48,615 nt of DNA from Paracoccaceae bacterium. GTDB lineage: Bacteria; Pseudomonadota; Alphaproteobacteria; Rhodobacterales; Rhodobacteraceae. Below are positions 10,244-48,416 of the stretch, piece by piece; within the stretch, counting starts at the first letter, position 1; each line of letters starts with the position of its first letter. The translations under genes and the position numbers were made by a program. The notes below the pieces were generated by a model that saw only the letters and a program-made list of their open reading frames with translations, was not told the origin of the DNA and did no database searches. The DNA is taken from contig JAAXIY010000070.1 of the NCBI GenBank assembly GCA_012270125.1, forward strand, positions 56,872 through 105,486, given 5' to 3'.

Positions 10244-13177
10244 TTAAAAGCTTAGGTTCTTAAAGTTTTCTTGGGCCTTTAAAGCATTGTTACATCGACC
10301 ACAAATTGGCTTTGTTGTGTTAACTTCAGGAAGTATTTTCCAACATCGTTGGCACTTTTCTCCAGAGGCTACTTTGAAATCGACAGCAATTCCTTTAACT
10401 TCGTCAGAGGAAAATGCCGATTTTGGAGCTTTGTCGAGAGAAAGTGTAATCGATGAAGTTATGCAGATGTCTGCAAATGGGATACTGTTTAATATATCAA
10501 AGGTTGTTTGATCTTCTAAATAAACCACTGGAGAGGCTTCGAGGCTTGAGCCTATAATTTTATCAGTGCGTTTGAGCTCGAGTGCTGCAGTTACAGCTCT
10601 CCTTGCTTGTCGAACTGTAGCCCATTTTATTGCTAAACTTTCATCTCTCCAAGTTCTTGGTGTTTCAGGTATATCGATTAAATGGACTGAGCTTTCATCA
10701 CCTGGATATCTTTCTAGCCATACCTCTTCCATTGTAAATACAAGCACAGGAGCAAGCCAAGATGTTAATCTATGAAATATCAGGTCAAGTACAGTTCGCG
10801 CCGATCGCCTTTCCGGTGTATTTCCATCACAATAAAGAACGTCTTTTCTTATATCAAAATAGAAAGAGGACAGTTCGACGGTTGCAAATGTGAACACAGA
10901 TTGAAAGACTCCTTGAAAGTCATATTCACTGTACCCTTTGCGAACTTTTTCATCGAGTTCAGATAAACGATGTAAAACCCATCGCTCTAATTCTGGCATA
11001 TCTTCAGGATCCATCCGTTCATCCTCTGAAAGCTCAGAGAGTGAACCCAAAATAAATCGCATTGTATTTCGTAATCTTCGGTAGCTGTCTGAAACACCTT
11101 TTAAAATTTCTGGGCCTATACGAAGATCTGCTGTGTAGTCAGCTTGTGCAACCCAAAGGCGTAGAATATCTGCTCCATATTGTTTTACAACTTGCTCTGG
11201 AGCGATGGTATTTCCTAAAGATTTGGACATTTTCATGCCTTTTTCATCCAAAGTGAAACCATGAGTTAAAACACCTCGGTAAGGAGCTCTTCCATTTGTT
11301 CCGCAAGACTGAAGCATAGATGAATGAAACCAGCCTCGATGTTGATCTGTGCCTTCCAAATACAAGTCAGCAAGTCCATCATCAGAACCATCCTTACGTT
11401 CTTTCAAAACGAATGCATGAGTGGAGCCACTATCAAACCAAACATCAAGAATGTCATACACTTGTTCATAGTCAGCAGGATCTACAATACCCTCTAAAAA
11501 ACGCTCCTTGGCATTTTCAAGATACCATGCATCTGCGCCTTCACTCTCGAATGCCTTCGCTATCCTGTCATTCACAGCATCATTTTTTAAAAGAAAATCT
11601 TTATCAGTAGGTGACGCTCCTTTTTTCGTAAAGCAAGTTAAGGGCACCCCCCAAGCTCGTTGTCTCGATAAAACCCAATCAGGACGTGTTTCAATCATAG
11701 AATATAATCGATTTCTTCCTGTTTGAGGCGTCCATGAAACCAACTTATCAATAGAATTTAAGGCGCGTTCTCTTATCGTGCTCCCAAATTCATCTTTATT
11801 ATCACCAACAGCTCGATCTATTGATGCAAACCATTGCGGTGTGTTTCGGTAAATGACTGGAGCCTTTGAACGCCATGAATGGGGATAGCTATGTTTGATT
11901 TTACCACGAGCCAATAGGCCCCCAACTTCTATCAATTTATCTATAACAGCCTTGTTTGCATCGCCTTCACCGCCTTTTCTGCTGAGGATATATTTCCCAC
12001 CAAAGAACGGCAGATTGTCTCTAAAGCTTCCGTCATCTTTTACGTTGTACGTTATGACTTCATCCAACATACCCAATTCGCGGTATAGTTCATACTCTTC
12101 CATCCCATGAGAGGGAGCACAATGAACAAATCCTGTGCCTTCGGTATCAGTTACAAAATCTGCAGGTCTGAAATCTCTAATTTCATCCCACTCGCCATTG
12201 GCTTCTTTGGCTGAAAATAACGGATGTCTTAACTTAATTGTTGTAAGACTTTCTACTGAAACATCACGAAGGCGACGATACATAGTTTCGTCTAGCCTTG
12301 CCTTTTCCATAACACCGGCAGCTAGATTGTCAGCTAGTATATATCTATCACCTATATTTGCCCAACATTCATCAGGCCGCGCAATTACTTCATACAAACC
12401 GTATTTTATATCTGGACCGAAAACGACGGCCTTGTTTGATGGAATAGTCCATGGTGTAGTTGTCCATATAACCACGTCAGAGCCATTGAGTTCCGTATCT
12501 TCATTGTCAGTTACTTTGAACTTGACCCAAATAGTGAAACTTTCTTTATCGTGGTACTCAATTTCAGCTTCAGCCAATGCCGTCTTTTCAATAGGTGACC
12601 ACATAACTGGTTTTGAACCTTGGTAGAGAGTACCATTCATTAAAAATTTCATGAATTCGCGGGCAATGGTCCGCTCTGCCTTAAAATCCATTGTTAGGTA
12701 CGGATTTTCCCAGTTACCGGTTACACCCAGCCGTTTAAACTCTTCTCTTTGGATGCTGATCCAACCATCTGCAAATTTTCGACATTCCTGACGAAAATCC
12801 ACGATAGGTACATCATCTTTATTTTTACCCTTCTTACGATATGTTTCTTCAATTTTCCACTCTATCGGTAATCCGTGACAGTCCCAACCTGGTATGTATC
12901 TTGCGTCATGGCCCATCATTTGTTGGCTTCTAACCACCATATCCTTTAAAATTTTATTTAAAGCATGTCCGATGTGAAGATTGCCATTTGCATACGGTGG
13001 CCCATCATGCAGTATGAACGGTTTTCGAGAGGCTTTTTCTCGCAATTTTTGGTAGATTCCAATATTTTCCCATCTCTCTAGCCAAAAAGGTTCTCGATTT
13101 GGCAAACCCGCTCTCATTGGAAAATCGGTCTTTGGAAGGTTTAAAGTATCTTTGTAGTCGGGTGCTTCAGCAGTCAT
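10244..13177 (-). CDS. ileS: Isoleucyl-tRNA synthetase
   Basis: Class I synthetase charging tRNA-Ile with isoleucine, with CP1 editing of valine. The HIGH motif is at residues 68-71 (GNLHIGHALN) and KMSKS lies near residue 645 (GMKMSKSLGNTI). A C-terminal zinc-finger pair (CQRCW and CGRCN) marks the bacterial type I enzyme, and 977 residues is full length. GAGGA precedes the ATG by about 9 bases. A 208-base leader separates it from ptsP and contains a small isoleucine-rich ORF plus GC-rich hairpins (described separately), so expression is probably attenuated by Ile-tRNA charging. It converges with tadA at a 3-base gap. Confidence 0.97.
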   Translation of the reverse strand: MTAEAPDYKDTLNLPKTDFPMRAGLPNREPFWLERWENIGIYQKLREKASRKPFILHDGPPYANGNLHIGHALNKILKDMVVRSQQMMGHDARYIPGWDCHGLPIEWKIEETYRKKGKNKDDVPIVDFRQECRKFADGWISIQREEFKRLGVTGNWENPYLTMDFKAERTIAREFMKFLMNGTLYQGSKPVMWSPIEKTALAEAEIEYHDKESFTIWVKFKVTDNEDTELNGSDVVIWTTTPWTIPSNKAVVFGPDIKYGLYEVIARPDECWANIGDRYILADNLAAGVMEKARLDETMYRRLRDVSVESLTTIKLRHPLFSAKEANGEWDEIRDFRPADFVTDTEGTGFVHCAPSHGMEEYELYRELGMLDEVITYNVKDDGSFRDNLPFFGGKYILSRKGGEGDANKAVIDKLIEVGGLLARGKIKHSYPHSWRSKAPVIYRNTPQWFASIDRAVGDNKDEFGSTIRERALNSIDKLVSWTPQTGRNRLYSMIETRPDWVLSRQRAWGVPLTCFTKKGASPTDKDFLLKNDAVNDRIAKAFESEGADAWYLENAKERFLEGIVDPADYEQVYDILDVWFDSGSTHAFVLKERKDGSDDGLADLYLEGTDQHRGWFHSSMLQSCGTNGRAPYRGVLTHGFTLDEKGMKMSKSLGNTIAPEQVVKQYGADILRLWVAQADYTADLRIGPEILKGVSDSYRRLRNTMRFILGSLSELSEDERMDPEDMPELERWVLHRLSELDEKVRKGYSEYDFQGVFQSVFTFATVELSSFYFDIRKDVLYCDGNTPERRSARTVLDLIFHRLTSWLAPVLVFTMEEVWLERYPGDESSVHLIDIPETPRTWRDESLAIKWATVRQARRAVTAALELKRTDKIIGSSLEASPVVYLEDQTTFDILNSIPFADICITSSITLSLDKAPKSAFSSDEVKGIAVDFKVASGEKCQRCWKILPEVNTTKPICGRCNNALKAQENFKNLSF

Positions 13178-13226
13178 TGCCGCTTTTCCTCAATTTTTAA
13201 TGTTCTTTAGTTCTGGAGAGTAAGTC

Positions 13227-13246
13227 GGTGCGCGACTGCGATCACC
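13227..13246 (-). promoter_or_regulatory. Second hairpin of the ileS leader, with an exclusive alternative
   Basis: On the minus strand GGTG (13246-13243) plus CGC (13240-13238) pair with GCG (13233-13231) plus CACC (13230-13227) around an AGTC loop. An alternative stem AGTCG (13237-13233) with CGACT (13227-13223) uses the same bases, so only one of the two can form. Mutually exclusive stems after a leader peptide are typical of attenuators. No T-run follows either stem. Confidence 0.45.
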
Positions 13247-13250
13247 TTGA

Positions 13251-13277
13251 CCCGGCTCCTCTTATCAGAGTGCCGGG
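13251..13277 (-). promoter_or_regulatory. GC-rich hairpin spanning the end of the ileS leader ORF
   Basis: On the minus strand CCCGGC (13277-13272) pairs with GCCGGG (13256-13251). An inner CTCT (13270-13267) / AGAG (13262-13259) stem closes a four-base loop. The left arm lies in leader codons 13-15 and the leader stop codon falls in the hairpin interior, so a ribosome finishing the leader must open the stem. The GC content stands out from the AT-rich surroundings. Confidence 0.55.
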
Positions 13278-13315
13278 CTAATAATTCGTATTATTAGATT
13301 TACTATCAAATTCAT
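13265..13315 (-). CDS. Putative isoleucine-rich leader peptide of ileS
   Basis: A 16-codon ORF reading MNLIVNLIIRIISPAL, with the Shine-Dalgarno AAGGA 4 bases before its ATG. Five of its 16 codons are isoleucine (ATA, ATA, ATA, ATT, ATT), three are leucine and one is valine. The stop lies 87 bases before the ileS start, within the interior of a GC-rich hairpin. The last Ile codon ends two bases before that stem's left arm. Leader peptides rich in the regulatory amino acid control biosynthetic operons and pheST in proteobacteria by ribosome stalling; an equivalent for ileS is my inference from position, composition and RNA structure. It is too short for ordinary gene finders, and chance cannot be excluded in AT-rich DNA, where ATA and ATT are common. 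Confidence 0.6.
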   Translation of the reverse strand: MNLIVNLIIRIISPAL

Positions 13316-13385
13316 AACGTCCTTATAGGCTAGAGACATGATGCGGTCTAGTGCCAGAATTAAATTTTGTTTTGTCCAAAAAATA

Positions 13386-27974: not shown

Positions 27975-28351
27975 GTGCGGATGGCTGGATGGTCGCGAGT
28001 ATACTCGAGGAAAGTCCGGACTCCTTAAAGCAACGGTGCCGGGTAACGCCCGGGCGGGGTAACCCGACGGAAAGCGCAACAGAAAGTAAACCGCCCGCTT
28101 AATTCGGGTAAGGGTGAAAGGGTGGGGTAAGAGCCCACCGGGGTTTTGGTAACAAGGCCTGCATGGCAAGCCCCACCGGGAGCAATGCCGAATAGGAACC
28201 TGCAAGAAGGCATTTAATGCTTTCTACTTTGCTTTGAAGTAAGGTTCGGGTAGGCAGCTATAGGGTTTGTAGTAATACAGACTTTAGATGAATGATCATC
28301 CATAAGGTTTTAAGACCTTGGGACAGAATCCGGCTTACAGGCCATCCGCAC
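27975..28351 (+). ncRNA. rnpB: RNase P RNA
   Basis: Catalytic RNA of ribonuclease P, which trims 5' leaders from pre-tRNA. The ends are set by the P1 helix: GTGCGGATGGC (27975-27985) pairs perfectly with GCCATCCGCAC (28341-28351). The universal GAGGAAAGTCCGGACTCC core lies near 28007, and the matching ACAGAATCCGGCTTAC is just before the 3' strand of P1. The length of about 377 and the AAGGGTGAAAGGGTGGGGTAAGAG segment fit the bacterial A-type RNA of alphaproteobacteria. It has its own promoter. No clear intrinsic terminator follows, only a short T-run near 28359. Confidence 0.95.
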
Positions 28352-28480
28352 TTAAAATTTTTGTTTAACAAAGTAGATATTTTCATTGTCTAAGTGTTGA
28401 CTCGGGACGTGGCTCAGTTAAAAGGCAGATCTCATATAAGATATTCGGTCAGTTATTTGGCCCAATACAGGAGTTAAATT

Positions 28481-48326: not shown

Positions 48327-48416
48327 GGAAACGTGGCCGAGTGGTCGAAGGCGCTCCCCTGCTAAGGGAGTAGGCGGGGAACCGTCTCGAGGGTTCGAAT
48401 CCCTTCGTTTCCGCCA
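48327..48416 (+). tRNA. tRNA-Ser, anticodon GCU
   Basis: Acceptor arms GGAAACG (48327-48333) and CGTTTCC (48406-48412) pair perfectly. The anticodon stem CTCCC/GGGAG (48354-48358 and 48366-48370) holds the loop CTGCTAA with anticodon GCT at 48361-48363, reading AGC/AGU serine codons. A long variable arm follows, as in class II tRNAs, then the T-arm with GGTTCGAAT. CCA is encoded (48414-48416). The sequence downstream resembles an integration junction. Confidence 0.97.

Follow-up and report, generated by a model that had tools for sequence, protein, structure and literature searches.

We consider it probable that the 208-base gap upstream of ileS in the window (the whole 48,615-nucleotide stretch of DNA analysed here) combines a promoter with a ribosome-mediated, attenuator-like leaderless leader that reports the charging of isoleucine tRNA to ileS. 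Sequence comparison reveals promoter-like boxes, a short ORF whose frame is kept, two predicted hairpins (hairpins 1 and 2) and the placement of this element before ileS. Read along the minus strand, an aspartokinase-like gene is followed by ptsP, then by the gap and ileS; the sequence-only reading of this DNA had named ptsP and ileS as the flanking genes, and both names are backed by Pfam. The features of the region are as follows.

13386, minus strand: end of the ptsP gene (from ORF coordinates; Pfam agrees with the name)
13346..13351, minus strand: -35-like hexamer CTAGAC, 18 nt before the -10 box (from conservation over 146 promoters)
13322..13327, minus strand: putative -10 box TATAAG (in most relatives a TATA hexamer precedes the ATG by 6 or 7 nt)
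13315, minus strand: predicted transcription start, the A of the leader AUG (from the -10 spacing; base -1 is a pyrimidine)
13265..13315, minus strand: leader ORF, MNLIVNLIIRIISPAL followed by a stop codon, probably leaderless (frame kept in 146/146)
13283..13288, minus strand: Arg-Ile codon pair CGA-ATT, whose spacing to hairpin 1 is fixed
13251..13277, minus strand: hairpin 1 (CCCGGC...GCCGGG), which holds the leader stop codon (from the fold and from conservation)
13227..13246, minus strand: hairpin 2 (GGUG-AU-CGC AGUC GCG-CACC; from the fold and from compensatory changes)
13192..13225, minus strand: spacer from hairpin 2 to the ileS Shine-Dalgarno sequence (pooled C 0.35, G 0.15, 124 loci)
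13186..13191, minus strand: probable ileS Shine-Dalgarno sequence GAGGAA (read from the sequence)
10244..13177, minus strand: ileS, isoleucyl-tRNA synthetase (PF00133, E 4.1e-127)

Promoter and leader ORF

The sequence-only reading described a 16-codon ORF with five isoleucine codons at 13315-13265, and this ORF is present with the translation MNLIVNLIIRIISPAL. The Shine-Dalgarno sequence AAGGA that it had assigned to the ORF is actually the tail of the conserved -10 box, the end of TATAAGGA. The -10 box of the window lies 6 nt before the leader ATG, and a TATA-type hexamer was found 6 or 7 nt before the ATG at 110 of 119 loci among the matches listed (6 nt, 59; 7 nt, 51; 9 nt, 3; 10 nt, 3; none found, 3); the script considered spacings of 3-10 nt and gave preference to ATGs in frame that had this kind of box. 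The positions of the -35 and -10 boxes are conserved over 146 similarly chosen promoters, the -35-like hexamer reads CTGGAC or TTTACC in many relatives, and base -1 is a pyrimidine in 136/146 promoters (C in 111, T in 25). If the spacing from the -10 box is normal, transcription would start on the A of the AUG; and since the supposed Shine-Dalgarno sequence belongs to the -10 box, the leader ORF is probably leaderless, with transcription starting at the AUG or within a base of it. A sigma-70 match within the ORF (TTGATA-17-AATTAT) was set aside, one such match having been found where 0.9 was expected in shuffles.

The reading frame of the leader is preserved among relatives. An ATG chosen only for lying 4-13 nt downstream of a TATA or TACAA hexamer, whatever its frame, was in frame with CGA-ATT at 146 of 146 loci, which are mutually related; one further locus of 147 had no such ATG. 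The distances from ATG to CGA-ATT at the 146 loci were 21, 24, 27, 30 and 39 nt, so that the frame survives changes in length, all of them multiples of three. The leader consensus in relatives is typically M-x4-A-III-R-II-x-PAL* (asterisk, stop), with wide variation in the N-terminal part. In frame, isoleucine occupies codons -1, -2 and -3 relative to CGA at 89, 86 and 76% of the 147 loci, compared with at most 5% at these positions in the other two frames, and ATT, ATC and ATA swap among the leader isoleucine codons. Most of the 147 loci had been chosen by a pattern that starts at CGA, so their upstream codons were unselected; the rest came through the covariance model R1, which covers the upstream codons, through DNA likeness or through ileS.

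A set of 68 ileS loci was fetched regardless of leader (15 from the genus, 24 from model-negative genomes of the family and 29 from elsewhere in the class). Parsing yielded 42 leaders; the script left out L279, L285 and L287, though the core is visible in all three. The key codon was ATT in all 42 and the preceding codon CGA in 35, whereas in the accompanying ileS genes ATT makes up 28% of isoleucine codons and CGA 10% of arginine codons. The gap from ATT to CCCGG was 5 nt in 45 of 46 matches, with 2-10 nt allowed, over 69 leader-independent ileS loci. A single isoleucine codon was present in 8 of the 42 parsed leaders, and many leaders of the model-negative genomes read RITGPAL, RISGPAR and similar. 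The run III-R-II is found in many Roseobacter-like genomes, whose leaders carry up to three extra isoleucine codons, and is often lost outside them, many of the relatives concerned being GC-rich. Together, the near-invariant pair, its spacing and the single-isoleucine leaders argue that the fixed feature is a codon pair at a set distance from hairpin 1 and not the number of isoleucine codons. As to the proposed conservation of the isoleucine codons, the run is kept in many Roseobacter-like genomes, and the single-isoleucine leaders lack it. These observations support the view that a conserved, translated-looking ORF with isoleucine codons precedes ileS.

Hairpins and occurrence in Rhodobacteraceae

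The GC-rich hairpin that the sequence-only reading had placed at 13277-13251, overlapping the end of the ORF, was found there and is conserved. In 96 distinct aligned rows, 98.8% of the cells of hairpin 1 were paired. Outside the family, 38 distinct versions of it (41 loci) averaged 9.9 bp; above the base of the stem, which the search pattern fixed, C-G, U-A and G-C replace one another, and pairs 6-9 were complementary at 0.82, compared with 0.66 for arms taken from different hairpins. Hairpin 2 is marked by compensatory changes: among the 96 distinct rows its third pair appears as C-G 47 times and as U-A 39 times, and in a block alignment made separately, with 118 distinct rows, no pairs covaried more strongly than this one and the inner pair. 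The strict hairpin 2 motif was missing at 22 of 146 loci, of which 7, forming a sub-clade of the genus, were without hairpin 2 altogether. For hairpins 1 and 2 together, 97.8% of cells were paired (96 distinct rows from 100 chosen sources), and all whole-structure pairing measures were reached by 0 of 500 shuffles, in an alignment that had been fitted to the covariance model. The MAFFT alignment A2 of a wider set was left out, its 3' arms being misaligned. The fold of the window's sequence by itself only mildly beats shuffles (z -1.93), of which 9 in 200 did as well. What lifts the element above chance is its conservation (16/16 genomes of the genus, 301/394 of the family, frame kept in 146/146) and not the single-sequence fold. 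The sequence-only reading had proposed aligning the regions upstream of ileS, and that alignment shows a conserved ORF frame and stems with compensatory changes in hairpin 2.

Of the two mutually exclusive hairpins that had been suggested, the one at 13246-13227 is hairpin 2 and is conserved; its named competitor at 13237-13223 is not supported. The competitor can form in the window, all five of its pairs are kept only there (1 of 124 aligned loci), and it is absent from the predicted fold of the window. A different alternative is a 2:3 pairing, in which the 3' arm of hairpin 1 would pair with the 5' arm of hairpin 2 (CGCC with GGYG), a topology equal to that of trp-type attenuators. This pairing folds in 98 of 102 distinct isolated segments, with median energies over the 102 distinct sequences of -17.9 for hairpin 1, -8.2 for the 2:3 segment and -5.9 for hairpin 2. 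Shuffled controls of the 2:3 pairing fold too (mean -6.0 vs -7.7), in the window it is weak (-4.1 kcal/mol), and no covariation specific to it was observed.

The element was found before ileS in 16 of 16 genomes of the genus, the window's own included. A DNA search with the gap matched 14 of 295 family genomes, and 13 of the matches adjoin ileS; the fourteenth, L040, aligns with another part of the query and was discarded. A set of 20 sequences served to build model R1, which has matches in 301 of 394 family genomes, the position before ileS having been checked on fetched loci only, and in 207 of 244 genomes of the order, where all matches listed belong to Rhodobacteraceae. In 24 genomes drawn from those listed as R1-negative in the family, the core was present before ileS in 21 and missing at L276, L282 and L290; by script, 17 had a layout of the leaderless type. 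An exact pattern search of named genomes returned at least 119 loci, with hosts among the matches listed that include Ruegeria, Sulfitobacter, Leisingera, Roseovarius, Shimia and Celeribacter. Among the 119 matches listed, the pattern ends 69-129 nt from the ileS start at 114; four others run off the fetched piece, and three of these four show an ileS-like start. The remaining match, L143, precedes a different gene. Nucleotide conservation is strong at CGAATTA and CCCGG. Thus, among the genomes examined, most Rhodobacteraceae and some further alphaproteobacteria have the element before ileS.

Other alphaproteobacteria and other downstream genes

Searched against 289 genomes of the class, R1 gave six matches, five in the family and one outside it (G770), also next to ileS. 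Read by eye, the CGAATT...CCCGG core was present in 9 of 30 ileS loci of other alphaproteobacterial families (from a search of 34 genomes; one of the 30 fetched loci had no upstream region). A pattern search of the 289 class genomes matched 29 genomes, and the reversed-pattern control gave none among the matches listed; of the 30 loci fetched, ileS follows at 19, three of them from the window's family, and a small ACT-like protein at 10; the remaining one (L262) is followed by neither and was taken as a chance match. A relaxed pattern run on 219 genomes of the phylum matched 24, the family contributing 13 of its 14 genomes, the remainder of the class 10 of 59 and genomes outside the class 1 of 146; this last (L323) has no leader and was also attributed to chance. 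The ten rest-of-class matches comprised six before ileS, one before the ACT-like gene, two before AAA_33 ATPase genes (L309 and L322) and one before an unnamed gene (L306). In the family of genome G968, 11 of 94 genomes match, with eight matches before ileS, two of these at about 470-500 nt. As these patterns see it, the element is a minority feature outside Rhodobacteraceae.

The small ACT-like protein follows the leader at ten loci (L245, L247, L251, L256, L257, L263, L267-L269 and L273), the gene having been identified by tblastn at L267-L269. The protein has 98-137 residues as called, its copies match each other by tblastn, and its leaders are of the RI[I/M]xP type. Likeness to the acetolactate synthase small subunit was weak and confined to two of seven proteins scanned (E 7e-4 and 0.03, far under the cut-off); no Pfam family reached its cut-off in these seven, and a PDB sequence search with one of the proteins found nothing. 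At L245 a citramalate synthase gene (450.6 bits against a cut-off of 450) comes after the ACT-like gene. In Azospirillum agricola (L143, 7528-7585), a leader reading MTYLHTMRMRIIGPAL followed by a stop codon, with an 8-bp hairpin, lies before a gene for a threonine ammonia-lyase-like enzyme (PALP), whose best NCBIfam match, E 7e-101, stays below the cut-off of the model concerned. These loci support the suggestion that related leaders precede some other genes that look isoleucine-linked. In total, 15 non-ileS loci in other alphaproteobacterial families comprised ten with the ACT-like gene, two with AAA_33 and three with nothing recognised; L328 and L333, without a recognised target, were taken as chance pattern matches. 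The leader-bearing loci L309, L322 and L306 precede genes without a known isoleucine link. At L309 and L322, in two other alphaproteobacterial families, a similar leader and hairpin stand before the AAA_33 ATPase gene.

Mechanism, output and alternative readings

In the preferred reading, transcription would start at the AUG of the 16-codon leader and the leaderless message would be translated, the position of the ribosome relative to the CGA-ATT codons deciding whether hairpin 1 folds. The ribosome footprint extends about 12 nt beyond the A-site codon. Counted from the sequence, a ribosome paused with ATT in its A site would extend into the base of hairpin 1, and a ribosome reading through would stop within it. 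Hairpin 1 may compete with, or yield to, the trp-type 2:3 pairing described above. Where charged isoleucine tRNA is scarce, the ribosome would be held on the isoleucine codons and ileS expression would rise; we infer both isoleucine as the signal and this direction of the response. Conservation at the level of the codons CGA and ATT speaks against a simple sensor of an isoleucine run, since counting isoleucines alone does not explain it. Of the isoleucine leader attenuator originally proposed, the conserved leader with isoleucine codons and hairpins 1 and 2 are retained; the Shine-Dalgarno sequence and the named hairpin pair are not, and the isoleucine run is often lost.

As the sequence-only reading had remarked, no T-run follows any stem in the window, and a terminator scan of the gap found no intrinsic terminator. 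Over 124 loci, U-rich windows downstream of hairpin 2 occurred at 15 compared with 6.9 expected, a mild excess absent from the other 109, and downstream of hairpin 1 at one. An intrinsic terminator after either hairpin is thus unsupported, there being no consistent U-tract in the window or in the 124 relatives. Sequestering of the ileS Shine-Dalgarno sequence is argued against by its flat accessibility over 107 loci (0.49 with no ribosome, 0.51 with the ribosome stalled and 0.51 with it at the stop) and by a Shine-Dalgarno-spacer duplex weaker than in shuffles (96 loci). The pooled spacer is C-rich and G-poor, which fits a Rho loading site without demonstrating one. Because of this composition and the missing U-tract, Rho-dependent termination is the first candidate for the output.

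The conserved codon pair could also belong to a pause device that is not specific for isoleucine, in which CGA-ATT before a strong hairpin sets where the ribosome stands with respect to RNA polymerase, general translation capacity or tRNA supply being what the leader reports. The enrichment of CGA and ATT over their use in the ileS genes, the single-isoleucine leaders with their fixed hairpin spacing and the leaders before AAA_33 ATPase genes would all suit such a device. We nevertheless regard it as unlikely, because 10 of the 15 non-ileS loci in other families adjoin an acetolactate-synthase-small-subunit-like gene and Roseobacter-like leaders hold as many as three additional isoleucine codons. 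Fixation of arginine and isoleucine as codons, not merely as residues, speaks against a regulatory arrest peptide, in which a nascent R-I-x-x-P would stall the ribosome upon a ligand in the manner of SecM or TnaC. The motif R-I-[I/T/S/M]-x-P-[A/V] does recur in many leaders from several families; its P-A part, however, has another cause, as these codons double as the 5' arm of hairpin 1. RAGP is the SecM-type arrest motif. No RAGP or RAPP-like C-terminal motif was found in the leaders, whose R-I-x-x-P differs from both as far as the available text of the source describes RAPP, and an arrest peptide appears improbable.

Two further readings are a DNA operator and a leader product that acts in trans. 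Strong nucleotide conservation of CGAATTA and CCCGG would be expected of a DNA operator, with the inverted repeat of hairpin 1 plus AATTA serving as a transcription factor site downstream of the promoter; yet the hairpin arms vary in sequence with complementarity kept, and the ORF frame survives length changes in multiples of three, which makes an operator very improbable. We give still less credence to a leader whose main product is a free small RNA or peptide with its action elsewhere, like rnTrpL/peTrpL of Sinorhizobium. Such roles are described for the leaderless trpL in the accessible portions of PMC7298713 and PMC10117765, but here the N-terminal part of the peptide is highly variable and the element is tightly linked to ileS.

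The preferred reading, a leaderless attenuator-like leader, has its closest described parallels among known leader systems as follows. According to the portions available of PMC10117765 and PMC7298713, trpL of Sinorhizobium meliloti is a leaderless leader ORF, its transcript beginning with the AUG itself. It resembles the ileS leader in being alphaproteobacterial, in having a short leader ORF, which for ileS is probably leaderless too, and in placing control codons before structures that for ileS may be alternative, and differs, on the same partial accounts, in its Trp codons, its biosynthetic gene and its transcription terminator, the ileS leader being without a consistent U-tract terminator. 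Attenuators of the pheST type have a leader peptide with cognate codons and alternative hairpins before a synthetase or biosynthetic gene. The ileS leader shares with pheST and other proteobacterial attenuators the putative leader peptide before the gene, cognate codons and possibly the alternative hairpins; it differs in its amino acid, its probably leaderless start, its conserved CGA-ATT, the single isoleucine codon of some relatives and the lack of an intrinsic terminator. T-boxes read tRNA directly, and no T-box covariance model matched the gap at gathering or at E up to 10. In the available part of PMC1262725, pheST is named among proteobacterial attenuators and isoleucine T-boxes are placed before ileS in Actinobacteria; on that account, RNA-level control of ileS would be common to the actinobacterial T-boxes and the gap, which has no T-box match. 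An ilvB leader peptide is known in alphaproteobacteria from the portion available of PMC1273637; by its description there, it comes from the same class of bacteria and is a branched-chain amino-acid leader, before a different gene.

Among the papers listed, literature searches found no ileS leader in alphaproteobacteria by title or start of abstract, though Vitreschak et al. 2004 may hold an ileS entry, and none on a leaderless ORF with isoleucyl-tRNA synthetase or on an ileS leader peptide with attenuation. The gene ileS is absent from the main texts of PMC2965389, PMC3616915, PMC10117765 and PMC1273637.

Only tentatively do we suggest a wider reading: the leaderless micro-ORF with CGA-ATT locked to a stop-codon hairpin of about 10 bp might be a distinct ribosome-position switch of alphaproteobacteria, present in nearly all Rhodobacteraceae and scattered through other groups, that needs neither a run of control codons nor an intrinsic terminator and is set before ileS, before other isoleucine-linked genes and, in some families, before an AAA ATPase. 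The single-isoleucine, codon-locked leaders would offer a test of the minimum number of control codons for an attenuator. If correct, the attenuator-like reading would mean RNA-level control of an essential tRNA synthetase in alphaproteobacteria, would explain how ileS could track isoleucine supply in roseobacters and would define a cis-regulatory family without an Rfam match. No Rfam family matched the gap at gathering, and searching at E up to 10 gave only FourU (E 4), so that no known RNA family is convincing for it. Elsewhere in the window, on the plus strand, lie a class A RNase P RNA gene (27977-28353) and a tRNA-Ser (gct) gene (48327-48416).
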